Source of the DNA: Geodermatophilus ruber
Lineage (GTDB): Bacteria > Actinomycetota > Actinomycetes > Mycobacteriales > Geodermatophilaceae
DNA: 64,000 bases
Direction: 5' to 3'
NCBI RefSeq assembly: GCF_900114385.1
Contig: NZ_FOSW01000007.1
Span: forward strand, 168,491 to 232,490
The first letter of the stretch is position 1. Each line of letters begins with the position of its first letter. The translations under genes were made by a program, and so were the position numbers. The notes beneath the pieces are model-generated. The model was not told the DNA's origin and ran no database searches. It saw only the letters and a program-made list of their open reading frames with translations. Below are positions 22,602 through 31,037 of the stretch, one piece after another.

Positions 22602-23933
22602 GTGACGCACGCGCCAGGGCGATTCCGACGGCCGGGACGCTGGACCGGCCCCGGAGAACCCGCCGCCCGGGACCGCCGGTGGGCCCTGCTGCGCCTGCTC
22701 CTCGTCGCGGTGTTCGCCACGGGCATCGCCGCCCTCACCCCGGGGGTGGCCTCCGCGGAGGGGGAGCAGCTCCTCGGGACCCTGCAGACCAGCCGGAGCG
22801 GCCCCATCGGGGGCGTCCAGATCGAGGTCACCACGCCCGGCGGCGAGGAGATCGAGACCGTCGAGAGCGACGAGCGGGGCCGCTGGTCGGTCGACCTCCC
22901 CGGCCCCGGGGAGTACGTGGTCACCCTCGACGCCGACGACCTCCCCGACGGGGTGGAGCTGGCCGGGGAGGACAGCCGCACCGTCACCGTCGACGAGAAC
23001 CGGCGCGAGCCGGTCATCATCGGCCTCTCCGACGGCAGCCGGGACTCCGGCGGCGGCACGGTCCGGGCCGTCCAGCTGCTCGTCGACGGCATCCGCTTCG
23101 GGCTGCTGATCGCGATGTGCGCCGTCGGGCTCTCCCTGATCTTCGGGACGACGGGGCTGACGAACTTCGCGCACGGCGAACTGGTGACCATCGGGGCGGT
23201 CGTCGCCTGGTTCATCAACGTGGAGGGCGGCGTCCCGCTGATCCCGGCCACGATCATCGCGATGGTGGTCGGCGCCGCCGTCGGCGCGCTCAACGAACTG
23301 GCCCTGTGGCGGCCGCTGCGCCGCCGGGGCACCGGGCTCGTCGCCGCACTGGTGATCTCCATCGGGCTCTCGCTGCTGCTGCGCTACCTGATCCAGATCG
23401 TCTACGGCGGCCGCTCCAGCCCCTACCGGTTCCAGCCCGGCCGGGCCGTGGACTACGGCCTGTTCACCCTCACCGACCGGGCCGTGGCCTCGATCATCAT
23501 CTCGATCGTCGTCCTCCTGCTGGTCGCGGTGATGCTGCAGCGGACCAGGATCGGCAAGGCGATGCGCGCGGTCGCCGACAACCGCGACCTCGCCGCTGCC
23601 TCCGGCATCGACGTCAACCGGGTCATCCTCGTGGTCTGGCTCATGGGCGGCGCGCTAGCGGCACTCGGCGGTGTGCTGCTGGGGCTGTCCGACCAGGTCC
23701 AGTGGGACATGGGCTTCCGGCTGCTGCTGCTCATGTTCGCCGGCGTCACGCTCGGCGGCCTCGGCACGGCCTACGGGGCGCTGGTGGGCAGCCTCATCGT
23801 CGGCGTGTTCGTGCAGATGTCGACCCTCGTCATCCCGAATGACGTCAAGTACGTCGGAGGACTGCTGCTGTTGATCGTCATCCTCGTCATCCGGCCCCAG
23901 GGCATCCTGGGCAGCCGCGTGCGGGTCGGCTGA
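22602..23933 (+). CDS. livH: LivH-type branched-chain amino acid permease with exported N-terminal Ig-like domain
   Basis: A 443-residue protein, about 150 longer than a standard LivH. Residues 27-52 form a signal peptide ending GVASAEG. Residues 55-145 look like a carboxypeptidase-regulatory-like beta domain (LLGTLQTSRSGPIGGVQIEV, GRWSVDLPGPGEYVVTLDAD). After a Gly/Ser linker, residues 153-443 are a full LivH permease with about eight helices, including GLSLIFGTTGLTNFAHGEL and RVILVVWLMGGALAALGGVL, ending VIRPQGILGSRV. GTG 22602 has GGGAGG 6 bases upstream. First gene of livHMGF. Confidence 0.92.
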   Translation: MTHAPGRFRRPGRWTGPGEPAARDRRWALLRLLLVAVFATGIAALTPGVASAEGEQLLGTLQTSRSGPIGGVQIEVTTPGGEEIETVESDERGRWSVDLPGPGEYVVTLDADDLPDGVELAGEDSRTVTVDENRREPVIIGLSDGSRDSGGGTVRAVQLLVDGIRFGLLIAMCAVGLSLIFGTTGLTNFAHGELVTIGAVVAWFINVEGGVPLIPATIIAMVVGAAVGALNELALWRPLRRRGTGLVAALVISIGLSLLLRYLIQIVYGGRSSPYRFQPGRAVDYGLFTLTDRAVASIIISIVVLLLVAVMLQRTRIGKAMRAVADNRDLAAASGIDVNRVILVVWLMGGALAALGGVLLGLSDQVQWDMGFRLLLLMFAGVTLGGLGTAYGALVGSLIVGVFVQMSTLVIPNDVKYVGGLLLLIVILVIRPQGILGSRVRVG

Positions 23934-23936
23934 GTC

Positions 23937-24935
23937 ATGGGTGAGCTGATCGACGCCCTCACCGTCGCCGGCAAGGCGGCCCTGGGCTTCCAGGCGATCT
24001 TCTTCGCGCTGCTGGCCATCGGCATCAACGTCCAGTTCGGGTACGCTGGCCTGCTCAACTTCGGGCAGATCGCCTTTGCCATGCTGGGCGGCTTCGGCAT
24101 CGCCATCTCGGTCAGCAAGTGGGGCCTGCCGTTCTGGGTGGGTGTGCTGGTCGGCGTCCTCGCCGCCGTCGTCCTCGCCCTGCTGCTGGGCCTGCCCACC
24201 CTGCGGCTGCGCGCCGACTACCTCGCGATCGCGACCATCGCGACCGCCGAGGGGCTCCGGCTGCTGTTCCGGTCGGTGTCGGCCACGCCGGTCACCAACG
24301 GCACCCGGGGCCTCTCTGCCTTCAACGGCGACTTCATCGCCCTGGCCCCGTGGGACACCGCCCGCCGGTACCGGTTCCTGGGCACCAGTTGGTCCGGCGC
24401 CGAGCTGTGGGTCGCCCTGGTCGGGTGGGTCCTCGTCGCGCTGGCCTGCCTGCTGGTGTGGGCGCTGGTGCGCAGCCCGTGGGGCCGGGTCCTCAAGTCC
24501 ATCCGCGAGGACGAGGACGCCGTCCGCGCCCTGGGCAAGAACGTCTACGTCTACAAGATGCAGGCCCTCGTCCTCGGCGGCGTCGTCGGCGCGTTCGGCG
24601 GCATGATCTACGCCGTCGGGACCGGGTCGGCCGTGCCCGACCAGTACCAGAACGCCAACACGTTCCTCGCCTACGCCGCGCTCATCCTCGGCGGCGCCGC
24701 CCGCGTGCTCGGGCCGGTCGTCGGCGCCATGCTGCTGCTGTTCATCCTGCAGTTCGCCGACACCCTGTTGCGAGCGCTGATCGACAACGGGGTCATCCCC
24801 TCGGAGCTGCTGTCCTCCACCGACGTCGCGCAGATCCGCTTCGTCCTGGTCGGGCTCGGGCTCATCCTGTTGCTGGTCTTCCGACCGCAGGGCATCTTCG
24901 GTGACCGACGAGAGGTGATGCTCGATGCCCGCTGA
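23937..24935 (+). CDS. livM: LivM-type branched-chain amino acid permease
   Basis: The second membrane subunit, 332 residues with eight to nine helices. Typical strings are GINVQFGYAGLLNFGQIAFA, LPTLRLRADYLAIATIATAE and VLKSIREDEDAVRALGKNVY, the cytoplasmic loop that contacts the ATPases. It follows livH after 3 bases and overlaps livG by 11 bases. It forms the import channel with LivH. Confidence 0.95.
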   Translation: MGELIDALTVAGKAALGFQAIFFALLAIGINVQFGYAGLLNFGQIAFAMLGGFGIAISVSKWGLPFWVGVLVGVLAAVVLALLLGLPTLRLRADYLAIATIATAEGLRLLFRSVSATPVTNGTRGLSAFNGDFIALAPWDTARRYRFLGTSWSGAELWVALVGWVLVALACLLVWALVRSPWGRVLKSIREDEDAVRALGKNVYVYKMQALVLGGVVGAFGGMIYAVGTGSAVPDQYQNANTFLAYAALILGGAARVLGPVVGAMLLLFILQFADTLLRALIDNGVIPSELLSSTDVAQIRFVLVGLGLILLLVFRPQGIFGDRREVMLDAR

Positions 24936-25898
24936 CCCCCGCTCCCCCGAGCCTCAGCGGCTGGCGCGGGCGGCGCTGCGCGACGTCGCCTGGGAGGTCG
25001 GCGTCGCCAAGCCCGACCCGGCCATCGTCGTCGACGGCGTCACCCGCACCTTCGGCGGGCTCACCGCCGTCGCGGTCGACCACCTGGAGATCCAGCGCGG
25101 CGGCATCACCGGCCTGATCGGCCCCAACGGGGCCGGAAAGACCACCCTGTTCAACCTGCTCACCGGCTTCGACCAGCCCAACGCCGGCAGCTGGACCTTC
25201 GACGGCCGGCCGCTGGGCAAGCTGGCGCCACACCGGGTGGCCCGGCTCGGCGTCGTCCGCACCTTCCAGCTCACCAAGGCGCTGGCCCGGCTCACCGTGC
25301 TGCAGAACATGCTGCTCGGGGCGCAGGATCAGCGCGGGGAGAGCTTCTTCCGGGCGCTGGTGCCCGGGATCTGGCGCCAGCAGGAGAAAGAGAACACGGA
25401 GAAGGCGATGGACCTTCTCGCGAGGTTCAAGCTGGACTCCAAGAAGGACGACTTCGCCGGGACCCTGTCCGGCGGTCAGCGCAAGCTGCTCGAGATGGCC
25501 CGGGCGCTGATGAGTGACCCCCAGGTCGTCATGCTCGACGAGCCGATGGCCGGGGTGAACCCTGCCCTGACCCAGAGCCTGCTCGGCCACGTCAAGGACC
25601 TGCGCGAGCAAGGGATGACGGTCATCTTCGTCGAGCACGACATGGACGTCGTGCGCGACATCAGCGACTGGGTGGTGGTCATGGCCTCCGGCCGGGTCAT
25701 CGCCGAGGGGCCGCCGGAGTCGATCAGCCAGAACCAGGCCGTGGTCGACGCCTACCTGGGCGCCCACCACGACGCCCCGCTCACCGTCGAGGAGGAGGAT
25801 CGCGTCCTCGCCCAGGCCGAGCGGGAGATCGCCCGCGAGGAGCACGTGGAGGGCGAGGTCCTCAGTTCCGACGTACCGCCGCAGGAGAGGACCGACCG

Positions 25899-25902
<4 letters not shown>
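24925..25902 (+). CDS. livG: LivG-type ATP-binding protein
   Basis: A 325-residue ABC ATPase. Walker A is GPNGAGKTT near residue 70, the signature is LSGGQRKLLEMARAL near 180, Walker B is VVMLDEPMAGVNP, and the switch histidine is in VIFVEHDMDVV. It has about 35 extra N-terminal residues and a 50-residue acidic C-terminal tail (TVEEEDRVLAQAEREIAREE) compared with enterobacterial LivG. It overlaps livM by 11 bases and livF by 4. Confidence 0.95.
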
Positions 25903-26753
<851 letters not shown>

Positions 26754-26981: not shown

Positions 26982-28307
26982 TCAGCGCTGGGGGCCGATG
27001 CCCTGGTCGTTGAGGCCCTGCAGGATCCGGGAGGACTCCTCGAACCCGATGACCACGATCGCGTCGGGGTTGAAGTCGACCATCTCCTGCACCTCGGCGT
27101 CGTAGTTCGCCGCCTGCGGGTCGTAGGTGAGGTCGACGATGTCGTCCTCGGAGAGCCCGGCCTCGATCAGGTTGTTCTTCGTGTTCTCCGACAGGCCGGT
27201 GCCGTACGAGTCGTTCAGCGCCAGGATGCCCACGGTGTTGTTGCCGTCCGCGATGATCATGTCGGCCAGGGCGCGGGCCTGCAGCGTGTCCGGGGGCGCG
27301 GTGCGGAAGTACAGCCCGTTGTCGTTGTAGTCGGTGAACTGGTCCGACGTGTTGGCCGGCGAGAACTGCAGGACGCCGGCCCCGGTGATGGCGTCGATGA
27401 CCGTGAGGCTCACGCTCGACGACGCGGCACCGATGATGGCGTTGGCGCCGGCCTGCAGCAGCCGGTCGACGGTCTGGGTCGCCGTGTCCGTCGAGGTGTC
27501 ACCGGAGTCGCCCTCGACCAGCTGCACCGGCTGGCCCAGCACGCCGCCGGCGGCGTTGATGTCGTTGATCGCCAGCTTGGAGGCGGCGACCTCCGGCGGG
27601 CCGAGGAAGGCCAGGTTCCCGGTCAGCGGCAGCAGCGTGCCGATCACCAGCGGCTCGCCGGTCGTCCCGGCCGGGGCGTAGGCCGGCCCCTCGTCGGTGG
27701 CCGCGTTCGCCTCGTCGCCGGTGATGACGAAATCGGTCGCGTCGGCGTCCAGCCGGTTGTCGTCCCCGAACTGGAGGAGGCCGATGCTCGCCTGGGCCGG
27801 CTCACCGGCATCGGTGAAGCTCAGCGGGCCGGAGATGCCGTCGTAGTCGACGTTGCCGCCGTTGTTGATGATCTCCAGGCAGGCGGCGAAGTCGGTGCAC
27901 TGCTCGCCGCCGAAGGTGATGCCGTTGACGTAGTCCTTGAAGACGTTGGCGTCGTTGGTGCCGGCCGCCTGCGCCGCGAGCGCGATGATGATGGCCGCGT
28001 CGTAGGTCTCACCGGCGTAGTTGAAGTCCTGCAGGTTCGGGTCGACCTCCCGCAGGCGGCTCATGAAGTCCTCGCCGAGGTCGGTGAGCGGCTGCGTGCC
28101 CCGCATGCCGGCCAGGGCACCGTTCTCGCTGAAGTCGTCCCCGGTGCCGTTCGCCGTGTTGCCGTCGACGCCGTAGACGTTGACCAGCTTCTCGCCGTCG
28201 CCGCCCCCGTTCGCGCTGCCGCCCTCGTCGTCCCCGCCGCAGGCGGTCAGGACGAGCAGAGCGGCACCCGAGACGGCGATGCTCCGGGCCAAGGTGCCAG
28301 TGCGCAT
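26982..28307 (-). CDS. livK: Branched-chain amino acid-type binding lipoprotein with permuted domain order
   Basis: A 441-residue lipoprotein: signal peptide with lipobox LTAC (Cys23) and a Gly/Asp/Ser-rich linker. The mature domain order is unusual. Residues 40-200 (KLVNVYGVDGNTANG, LQDFNYAGETYDAAIIIALA, GISGPLSFTDAGEP, FVITGD) are what normally ends a type I periplasmic binding protein of the LivJ/LivK group. Residues 219-441 start PLVIGTLLPLTGNLAFLGPP, the usual N-terminal strand, and end VIGFEESSRILQGLNDQGIG, where the C-terminal half would normally continue. A 19-residue Ala/Gly linker joins them. So all parts are present, in swapped order. ATG 28307 has GGGAG 7 bases upstream. It should supply substrate to LivHMGF, which faces it. 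Confidence 0.93.
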   Translation of the reverse strand: MRTGTLARSIAVSGAALLVLTACGGDDEGGSANGGGDGEKLVNVYGVDGNTANGTGDDFSENGALAGMRGTQPLTDLGEDFMSRLREVDPNLQDFNYAGETYDAAIIIALAAQAAGTNDANVFKDYVNGITFGGEQCTDFAACLEIINNGGNVDYDGISGPLSFTDAGEPAQASIGLLQFGDDNRLDADATDFVITGDEANAATDEGPAYAPAGTTGEPLVIGTLLPLTGNLAFLGPPEVAASKLAINDINAAGGVLGQPVQLVEGDSGDTSTDTATQTVDRLLQAGANAIIGAASSSVSLTVIDAITGAGVLQFSPANTSDQFTDYNDNGLYFRTAPPDTLQARALADMIIADGNNTVGILALNDSYGTGLSENTKNNLIEAGLSEDDIVDLTYDPQAANYDAEVQEMVDFNPDAIVVIGFEESSRILQGLNDQGIGPQR

Positions 28308-28499: not shown

Positions 28500-29099
28500 T
28501 CAGTCCGCCGCGGCCTCGGGTGCCGACACCGGCTCGAGGATCTGCTGGGCCAGGGCCTTCATCGAGGTGCGCTCGTTCATCGCCGTCCGCTGGATCCAGC
28601 GGAACGCCTCGGCCTCGGTCAGCCCCTGCTCGGCCATGAGCTTGCCCTTGGCCTGCTCCACGACCTTGCGGGTCTCCAGCCGCTCCTCGAGCGTGCGGAC
28701 CTCACCGTCGAGGGCGGCGAGCTCGGCGAACCGGGCGCGGGCCACCTCGATCGCGGGCACCAGGTCGTTCTTGGAGAACGGCTTGACCAGGTACGCCATC
28801 GCGCCGGCGTCCCGCGCCCGCTCCACCAGCTCACGCTGGCTGAAGGCGGTGAGCACGATGACCGGTGCGATGCGGGCCGTGGCGATCTGCTCGGCAGCGG
28901 AGAGCCCGTCCAGCACGGGCATCTGGATGTCGAGGATCACCAGATCCGGCCGCAACTCGGCGGCGCGCTCGACCGCCTGCTGCCCGTCACCGACCTCGGC
29001 GACGACCGCGTAGCCCTCCTCCTCCAGCATCTCCTTGAGGTCGAGGCGGATGAGGGCCTCGTCCTCGGCGATCAGGACCCGGATCGGCTCGCTGCTCAC
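28500..29099 (-). CDS. pdtaR: PdtaR-like ANTAR response regulator
   Basis: A 199-residue regulator with an N-terminal receiver domain (about 5-120) and a C-terminal ANTAR RNA-binding domain (about 130-190). Receiver residues visible are the acidic pair in VLIAEDEALIR, the phosphoacceptor Asp in LVILDIQMPVLDG, Thr in VIVLTAFSQ and Lys in AYLVKPFSK. The ANTAR part has VVEQAKGKLMAEQGLTEAEA and AFRWIQRTAMNERTSM. Its mycobacterial counterpart Rv1626 is phosphorylated by PdtaS and acts on RNA hairpins as an antiterminator. No kinase gene is adjacent here. Confidence 0.94.
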   Translation of the reverse strand: MSSEPIRVLIAEDEALIRLDLKEMLEEEGYAVVAEVGDGQQAVERAAELRPDLVILDIQMPVLDGLSAAEQIATARIAPVIVLTAFSQRELVERARDAGAMAYLVKPFSKNDLVPAIEVARARFAELAALDGEVRTLEERLETRKVVEQAKGKLMAEQGLTEAEAFRWIQRTAMNERTSMKALAQQILEPVSAPEAAAD

Positions 29100-29251: not shown

Positions 29252-29275
29252 CCCAGGCACCACCACGACACGGTT

Positions 29276-29325
29276 GAGCGATTCACAACCCGCGCAGTGT
29301 GCGTTCGAGTCGCAGCGGGGGCACC
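29276..29325 (+). repeat. Partial duplicate of the 3' half of the adjacent tRNA
   Basis: Fifty bases that match 29203-29253 (the anticodon arm to the 3' end of the tRNA) with one deletion and two substitutions. The matching 5' half is absent, since nothing upstream pairs with the acceptor strand. Such truncated copies arise when an integrase uses a tRNA 3' end as attachment site, or by unequal exchange between tandem tRNAs. Confidence 0.8.
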
Positions 29326-29360
29326 GCCCCCGGGCGCCGGCCGCCCCATACGGTGGGGCC

Positions 29361-31037
29361 GTGAGCGAGCCGATCCCGACACCCCCGCACATGACGCCCG
29401 AGCAGTTCCGGCAGCACGGTCACGAGGTCGTCGACTGGATCGCCGACTACTGGACCCGGGTCGGCTCCCTCCCGGTGCGCTCCCCCGTCGCCCCGGGCGA
29501 CGTGCGCGAGGCGCTCCCGCCGTCGGCCCCCGAGCAGGGCGAACCGTTCTCAGCCGTCCTCGCCGATCTCGATCGCGTCGTCGTGCCCGGGCTCACGCAC
29601 TGGCAGCATCCCGGCTTCTTCGGCTACTTCCCCGCCAACACCTCGGGCCCCTCGGTTCTCGGCGACCTCGTCTCGGCCGGCCTCGGCGTGCAGGGCATGT
29701 CGTGGGTGACGAGTCCCGCGGCCACCGAGCTCGAGCAGCACGTCATGGACTGGTTCGCCGAGCTGCTCGGCCTGCCGGAGTCGTTCCGCTCCACCGGGAC
29801 CGGCGGCGGCGTCGTCCAGGACACCAGCTCGGCCGCGAACCTGGTGGCGCTGCTCGCGGCACTGCACCGGGCCAGCAGCGGGGCGACCGTGCGGAACGGG
29901 GTGAGCCCGGAGGAGTACACGGTCTACGTCTCCAGCGAGACGCACTCCTCCATGGAGAAGGCCGTCCGCATCGCGGGCCTGGGCAGCGACGCCGTGCGGC
30001 TGGTCGAGGTCGACGCGGACCTGGCGATGCGCCCGGCCGCCCTCGCCGCGCGGCTGGAGCGGGACACCGCCCGGGGCTTTCGCCCCGTGCTCGTCTGCGC
30101 CACGGTCGGGACGACGTCCACCACGGCGATCGACCCGCTGGCCGAACTCGGCCCGATCTGCCAGAAGTACGGCGTCTGGCTGCACGTGGACGCCGCCTAC
30201 GCCGGGGTGAGCGCCGTGGCGCCCGAGCTGCGCCCGCTGCAGGCCGGCGTCGAGTGGGCCGACAGCTACACCACCGACGCCCACAAGTGGCTGCTCACCG
30301 GCTTCGACGCCACCTTGTTCTGGGTCGCCGACCGGGCCGCGCTCACCGGCGCGCTGGCGATCCTGCCGGAGTACCTGCGCAACGCCGCCACCGACGCGGG
30401 CAGCGTCGTGGACTACCGCGACTGGCAGATCGAGCTCGGTCGCCGCTTCCGGGCGCTGAAGCTGTGGTTCGTGCTGCGCTGGTACGGCGCGGAGGGGCTG
30501 CGGGCGCACATCCGCTCCGGGGTGGCGATGGCCCAGGAGCTGGCCGGTTGGGTCGACGCCGACGACCGGTTCGACGTGGTCGTGCCGCACCCGCTGTCCC
30601 TGGTGTGCCTGCGGCCGCGGTGGGCCGCCGACGTGGACGCCGACGTGGCCACGATGACCCTGATGGAGCGGCTCAACGACGGCGGCGAGGTGTTCCTGAC
30701 CCACACCACCGTCCGGGGGCAGGTGGTGCTGCGGGTGGCCGTCGGTGCGCCCACGACGACCCGGGCGCACGTCGAGCGGGTCTGGGCGCTGCTGTGCGAG
30801 GGGCACGACTGGCTGGCCGCCGACTTCGCCGAGTCCGCCGCCGAGCGGGCCCGGCTCGACGCCGAGCGCCGAGCGGCCCTCGCGGCACCGGCGGAGGCGC
30901 CGGCGACGCAGGACGAGACGGCCACGCAGGCCGCGGCGCAGGAGGACCTGCCGGCCGGCCCCGCCGACGTGCCGCCGGGCACGGACTCGGAGCCCGTCCC
31001 GGACGAGGCCGACGCCGCCTCGCGCTCCGGGAGCTGA
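29361..31037 (+). CDS. Group II pyridoxal-dependent (aromatic-type) amino acid decarboxylase
   Basis: A 558-residue decarboxylase. The PLP-binding lysine lies in TTDAHKWLLTGFD near residue 313, preceded by the aspartate in WLHVDAAYAG near 274. QHPGFFGYFPANTS and SSETHSSMEKAVR are typical of the aromatic L-amino acid decarboxylase family. Residues 475-558 are an Ala/Glu/Pro-rich, probably disordered tail not found in characterised members. GTG 29361 is chosen because family homology begins with MTPEQFRQHGHEVVDWIADY shortly after. The substrate amino acid cannot be fixed from sequence alone. Confidence 0.92.
   Translation: MSEPIPTPPHMTPEQFRQHGHEVVDWIADYWTRVGSLPVRSPVAPGDVREALPPSAPEQGEPFSAVLADLDRVVVPGLTHWQHPGFFGYFPANTSGPSVLGDLVSAGLGVQGMSWVTSPAATELEQHVMDWFAELLGLPESFRSTGTGGGVVQDTSSAANLVALLAALHRASSGATVRNGVSPEEYTVYVSSETHSSMEKAVRIAGLGSDAVRLVEVDADLAMRPAALAARLERDTARGFRPVLVCATVGTTSTTAIDPLAELGPICQKYGVWLHVDAAYAGVSAVAPELRPLQAGVEWADSYTTDAHKWLLTGFDATLFWVADRAALTGALAILPEYLRNAATDAGSVVDYRDWQIELGRRFRALKLWFVLRWYGAEGLRAHIRSGVAMAQELAGWVDADDRFDVVVPHPLSLVCLRPRWAADVDADVATMTLMERLNDGGEVFLTHTTVRGQVVLRVAVGAPTTTRAHVERVWALLCEGHDWLAADFAESAAERARLDAERRAALAAPAEAPATQDETATQAAAQEDLPAGPADVPPGTDSEPVPDEADAASRSGS

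Follow-up and report, generated by a model that had tools for sequence, protein, structure and literature searches.

The 441-aa lipoprotein encoded by livK in the window (the whole 64,000-nucleotide stretch of Geodermatophilus ruber DNA analysed here) is, by sequence comparison, a complete LivK/LivJ-type (Peripla_BP_6) protein in circularly permuted form. The same comparison places its descent in the LivK/LivJ family, of which it is a topological variant with the lipobox followed by the canonical C-terminal part (B part), a linker and the canonical N-terminal part (A part; Table 1). The circular permutation is supported by profile searches, Pfam, alignment to PDB sequences, the order found in relatives and the presence of canonical relatives at the corresponding locus. 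A preliminary description of the gene had already claimed the permutation, which these lines of evidence bear out. The claim was understated though, as the order is family-wide and topology tests and trees point to repeated origins. We estimate that the LivK proteins of Actinomycetota were permuted on four separate occasions as a minimum, and possibly on five or more. Taken as a whole, the gene very probably encodes a working flytrap binding protein, whose lipid anchor would have moved to the other lobe and which was plausibly permuted in place by duplication, fusion and trimming.

Table 1. Permuted livK, its parts and its gene neighbours, in positions of the window
Feature	Position	Strand	Remarks
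livH-type permease with leader domain	22764..23933	+	start approximate
livM-type permease	23937..24935	+	
livG-type ATPase	24925..25902	+	
livF-type ATPase	25899..26753	+	convergent with livK
Permuted livK, 441 aa	26982..28307	-	ATG at 28307, stop 26982-26984
Signal peptide and lipobox, Cys23	28239..28307	-	lipobox pattern in 81 of 81 permuted proteins
N-terminal Gly/Ser/Asp linker	28191..28238	-	residues 24-39
B part (canonical C-terminal part)	27708..28190	-	residues 40-200, starts KLVNVYGVDGN; profile positions 219-371; ANF_receptor 267-349, sub-threshold
Internal linker joining old C- and N-termini	27657..27707	-	residues 201-217; profile leaves 192-218 unmatched
A part (canonical N-terminal part)	26985..27656	-	residues 218-441, ends QGIGPQR; PF13458 2-217; profile 2-221
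Response regulator with ANTAR domain	28500..29099	-	frequent livK neighbour

Order and completeness of the permuted protein

The order of the parts was scored with a profile of 377 positions built from 48 canonical relatives. Residues 38-191 correspond to profile positions 219-371 (178 bits) and residues 219-440 to positions 2-221 (351 bits). Both parts thus occur once, cover the full circle and stand in inverse order, with no part missing and none doubled. The preliminary description had read residues 40-200 as the usual C-terminal segment and had counted every piece once, and both readings hold. Rejoining A and B in canonical order without the lipobox linker produces a single match of 542 bits over positions 2-371. 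When A is followed by shuffled B, the score averages 353.3 bits over 20 tries and never exceeds 359.5. Rotated mature chains in which the lipobox linker is retained are uninformative. PF13458 matches residues 220-439 of the protein as encoded (121.3 bits, cut-off 31.7), and the halves joined in canonical order extend this to one match over model positions 2-312 (135.7 bits). The B part alone falls below PF13458, its sole match being to ANF_receptor at 21.7 bits, under the cut-off. Among PDB sequences, re-ordering raises the best match from 56.7 to 65.3 bits, reaching residues 5-310 on 4gnr, and hardly alters several other matches. The NCBIfam LivK-type model (cut-off 477) gives 60.6 bits for the window protein and only 67.5 for the canonical protein L058.

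The reading frame contains no internal stops. In an alignment of 22 rows the mean column identity is 79%, and the motifs YGxDGN, GAASS, SPANTS and YGTGL, which we assume from LivJ to have a role in ligand binding, are invariant. At 28131-28169 the window protein has VDGNTANGTGDDF, where 19 of its 21 aligned relatives have MGNAL following DGN; this divergence is local and adjoins the presumed ligand motif. NG86 estimates of dN/dS are moderately low, with dN of 0.09-0.13 and dS of 0.25-0.40 for seven relatives, and values of 0.31/0.55 and 0.32/0.41 for two more distant ones.

A first genome search matched 52 of 61 genomes at E<=0.001, with genomes of the same genus matched over residues 1-441 except for G020 (distant match only). 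The survey at order level sampled 397 genomes, 75 of them from the family of the window (f1, Geodermatophilaceae according to its named loci of Blastococcus, Geodermatophilus and Klenkia). The search of relatives for the same order, which had been advised earlier, gives a uniform answer in f1: 67 of the 75 genomes match, with all 67 best matches permuted end to end (start 1/2, end 439/441), and eight are listed without a match. The preliminary description had counted such a shared linear order against a permutation if residues 40-200 lacked a counterpart in the usual C-terminal half. Close homologs do share the order, but residues 40-200 still match the usual C-terminal part. The rarity of such an order among described families is the sole point in favour of an artefact of assembly or annotation, or of a decayed gene. 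This explanation is barely credible given the identical order in dozens of separate assemblies, some of them single-contig, the intact reading frame, the complete domain coverage and many invariant residues.

A record titled Bacillus sp. AZ43 (SPQJ01000006.1, locus L035) also holds a permuted livK, 80% identical, which groups with Blastococcus atacamensis; the record is probably a mislabelled Geodermatophilaceae. Some f1 genomes carry a second permuted livK (L193, L064), and the second copy of G109 (L193) has no match to liv or regulator proteins within the 17 kb fetched.

Relatives, cut sites and gene neighbours

Of the 243 distinct relatives that match the profile, 118 have the permuted order and 124 the canonical one, and one is truncated by a contig end; these proportions are not frequencies, since relatives were gathered by similarity and targeted surveys. 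The cut positions fall into two groups at about 221/222 and about 241/243 of the 377-position model, about 22 residues apart. The first cut immediately precedes the VDGN strand and the second comes just after the helix following it; two outliers are explained by one contig end and one masked stretch. The permuted proteins are grouped below as alpha (families f1, f13 and f16), beta (f39 and genus g168 of f49), gamma (genus g125 of f41) and delta (f81, f122 and g290 of f68; second cut). End-to-end permuted matches occur in at least 67 sampled genomes of f16. All seven f8 proteins that were compared have the canonical order, with 60-66% identity over A. In G058, from another family of the same order, the A part (58%) is directly followed by the B part (45%), the two meeting at ORF residues 313/314.

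The window livK is encoded beside livHMGF and beside an ANTAR response regulator that we take to be PdtaR. The recurring neighbour order is pyk, sometimes tesB, the ANTAR response regulator, livK and convergent livFGMH. In ten loci (L165-L168, L181-L185, L190) canonical livK has both the regulator and livFGMH beside it, and these ten proteins are 56-66% identical to the window protein over A. In the canonical loci L162, L187 and L188 the regulator lies beyond livH, and in L186, L191 and L192 livFGMH is present with the regulator absent from the stretch. Permuted livK adjoins pdtaR and livFGMH in f1 (L036, L037, L040, L179, L180), f49 (L169, L198), f41 (L172) and f13 (L164, with the contig beginning inside livM). 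It stands beside livFGMH alone in L170, L171 and L174-L178, with livFGMH on the other side of livK in L174. At the f39 and delta loci pdtaR is absent from the fetched stretch, and seven f16 loci (L059, L159-L161, L163, L195, L196) show no match to the window's liv or regulator proteins within the 16-19 kb fetched. One f16 genome, G357, carries a canonical gene as well, which lies near liv genes (L162). The gene setting of livK is hence not uniform across relatives, with several settings that differ.

The leader of LivH (22764-23060) matches CarboxypepD_reg at 26.0 bits, below the cut-off of 32.3. Similar LivH leaders adjoin both canonical and permuted livK in other families, and a link between the leader and the permutation is not supported, as the leader stands beside canonical genes too. 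A pyridoxal-dependent decarboxylase gene at 29274-31037 lies between the ANTAR regulator and a thioesterase; a decarboxylase occupies that position in all five f1 loci that have this arrangement, and no other locus of the comparison shows it there. The canonical LivK of L056, from a MAG labelled Bifidobacteriaceae, has a very long branch and liv genes in the same direction.

Both orders of livK can be found within one genus. Of the 118 genomes sampled from genus g125, 68 have a match at 1e-40 and 5 have one that is permuted from end to end; the listed matches of the other g125 genomes cover one part or two separate parts. The permuted loci L311-L313 and the canonical locus L314 of this genus share pyk, pdtaR, livK and livFGMH. 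End-to-end permuted matches in f49 are found in 5 of 59 genomes (45 with a match), all of genus g168; in a sixth f49 genome (G1129) the A part ends in a stop at the contig edge. The canonical order is found in G1137 of g168, and permuted L169 and L198 and canonical L309 of this genus share pdtaR, livK and livFGMH. In f81, 35 of 101 genomes have a permuted match (60 with a match), and both orders are present in genus g243 (L315, L316). The genome G1296 has two permuted livK in tandem (L306, 5686-9291), each about 41% identical to the window protein.

Number of origins

The permuted proteins are not one clade. Although AU p-values are weakened by the naming of groups after tree inspection, the tests reject a single clade of all 41 permuted rows among 92 (dlnL 158, p=3.2e-38), of all first-cut rows (p=2.6e-93) and of alpha with delta (p=9e-4), and for beta with gamma give p=0.044 with the single gamma row then known and p=0.0047 with better sampling. 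The tests do not reject a single clade for alpha (p=0.44), and for delta the outcome is borderline (p=0.021 and 0.046). A careful tree of 66 rows (27 of 93 rows excluded) requires five changes of order, five of them forced by starred branches. A quick tree of 153 rows, which excluded all but 10 chosen of 61 f1/named permuted rows and then near-copies, requires five changes with four forced. Six changes (three forced) are needed in a tree of A only and five (two forced) in a tree of B only. The trees count changes only, with gain and reversal indistinguishable. The alpha group (f1, f13 and f16) may represent one or two events, with canonical f8 in an unresolved fork with alpha, and delta may likewise represent one or two. 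The gamma proteins branch as a clade from within the canonical f41 proteins, with a canonical g113 protein as the nearest row (support 94), which places the event within f41, perhaps within the genus. We infer from this one separate permutation, found in a single genus, nested among canonical relatives and with the locus unchanged.

Recurrence would be only apparent if a single ancient permutation had been spread by horizontal transfer and differential loss. Some observations fit such a history. The alpha proteins of f1, f13 and f16 share a G[DE][ED] junction signature near the old C-terminus (58 of 60 in f1/f13, 7 of 8 in f16, 2 of 52 among canonical proteins), those f16 copies that were examined stand apart from liv genes, and f39 groups with genus g168 of f49, other f49 genera being canonical. 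The signature and the position of the f16 copies make paralogy or transfer within alpha likely. The signature occurs in 0 of 7 beta plus L086 and in 0 of 6 delta proteins. A single origin is nevertheless highly improbable, as AU tests reject the clade of all permuted proteins and the larger unions, two different cut sites exist and gamma is nested among canonical proteins. The trees were built from the genes themselves, so transfer cannot split one clade. Repeated permutation is thus the preferred reading. Four events within a 22-residue stretch of 377 would have a chance of about 2 in 10,000 if cuts were uniform, a post hoc hand calculation whose assumption of uniform cut sites does not hold. 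Structural tolerance would explain the shared cut site as well as selection does.

Route, fold and comparison with known permutants

Sequences at the junctions make duplication and trimming a plausible route. The proposed steps are an in-place tandem duplication, a read-through fusion and the loss of redundant ends, and such a rearrangement would have happened at least four times among the LivK proteins of Actinomycetota. In gamma, the old C-terminus, canonically ...YIAGEI and a stop, runs on as ...YITGQI, followed by some 16 residues and by KPGDGVLTVG, which resembles the canonical PKGDGTLTIG preceding A. This junction fits the trace expected if the end of copy 1 had been joined to the end of the leader of copy 2. 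Tandem canonical livK pairs exist (L181, L189). Searches of 81 flanks on the upstream and 81 on the downstream side, each up to about 1 kb long, with queries taken from 12 proteins found no leftover A or B piece at E<=0.01, in line with the preliminary description, which had seen no remnant of the moved segment. No duplicated, half-trimmed or split gene was found among 316 loci; no ORF there repeats the model, and 11 partial matches consist of nine contig or locus ends and two distant paralogs. The duplication and trimming proposed earlier is thus plausible, given linker ends that resemble the old termini and the tandem canonical pairs, but no intermediate was found in the 316 loci and no remnant in the flanks.

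Duplication and fission-fusion are given as the two main models for permutation (PMC3320104). Fission followed by fusion in the other order would yield the same final order. The split halves are absent among the 316 loci, as is the duplicated intermediate, and the end of the internal linker resembles that of the canonical linker preceding A, which fits the joining of a copy end to a leader. Fission and fusion is an unlikely route here, and duplication and trimming a plausible one.

An AF2 model based on 22 sequences has a pTM of 0.80, a mean pLDDT of 76.8 and alternating strands and helices; the pLDDT is modest, and the other four models reach 60-74. The best 30 Foldseek matches to solved binding proteins align 219-240 columns, which is expected if only one segment is collinear; such matches require collinear order. 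By homology, both cut sites would lie in lobe 2, given the limits of the lobes that we assume for LivJ. Junctions near the lobe crossings, as described earlier, are not borne out, since the cut of the window protein sits within lobe 2 before the VYGVDGN strand. With both cuts in lobe 2, the lipid anchor would move from lobe 1 to lobe 2 and the linker would have to cross between lobes. The N-terminal linker that follows the lipobox Cys has median lengths of 17 residues (f1/f13), 9 (f16), 19 (beta plus L086) and 28 (delta), compared with 30 for the canonical proteins, of which 49 of 52 show a lipobox, so that a shorter anchor is not general.

The window protein would act as a lipid-anchored substrate-binding protein of the LivK type serving the adjoining Liv-type ABC importer livHMGF, with branched-chain or other amino acids or amides probably as the putative ligand. 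The chain would have been opened in lobe 2 just before the VDGN-motif strand, and the old termini joined by a linker of about 20-30 residues. The permutant is expected to adopt the common two-lobed flytrap fold and to function normally, with the predicted exceptions of a lipid anchor on lobe 2 and a linker forming a fourth lobe-to-lobe connection. Canonical LivK/LivJ proteins (PF13458; PDB 4gnr, 3ipc, 4n0q, 1usg) share with the window protein all sequence parts, the motif order within parts, neighbouring livHMGF and, in most relatives, the lipoprotein export signal. The window protein differs in its reversed parts and in its new termini, which would lie in lobe 2.

Natural permutation of type I binding proteins is already known, in another family and with another cut. 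TpMglB-2 (Tp0684) of Treponema pallidum has been described as a natural permutant of a type I binding protein with a fourth crossing, for which a Type Ic was proposed (PMC4990184). As described there, TpMglB-2 likewise is a lipoprotein, has relatives with the same order and has the extra lobe crossing expected for the permuted LivK. It belongs to the glucose-binding MglB family, and its first three N-lobe strands have moved to the C-terminus with 13% identity there. The LivK of the window differs from what is described in its cut in lobe 2, in re-ordered parts that are clearly homologous and in the several origins proposed. Of the Type Ic features, the window protein has, judged by sequence, the permuted type I fold, and it lacks the three-strand move; with the cut at about 221 of 377, the whole first 58% of the domain stands last. 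Permutants also occur among glycine-betaine-binding proteins, a relation that we presume to involve ProX and OpuAC. The glycine-betaine-binding permutants were found by structure search and are likewise binding proteins of ABC importers, but from another family (PMC2395249). The matches listed from the open literature, with subscription journals mostly outside, contain no report of natural permutation in the LivJ/LivK family, and no open-literature paper on circular permutation in Geodermatophil- was found.

Profiles and fold searches that depend on linear order give a score to only a part of such permuted proteins. As a rule, natural circular permutants are known from one old event each. Among LivK proteins, related canonical and permuted genes coexist, even in one genus code, at the same locus and with the same partners. 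The permutation route, the effects on folding and transport and the preferred cut site are thus directly testable. The repeated rotation would serve as a natural experiment on the freedom that a protein fold allows in where its chain is cut. One transporter gene at a mostly conserved locus might have been permuted at least four times near the same place because a shift of the lipid anchor, or of the N-terminus in export and folding, from lobe 1 to lobe 2 is repeatedly favoured, an idea that we advance tentatively and with more doubt than conviction. If true, repeated lobe-2 anchoring would represent convergent evolution of protein topology.
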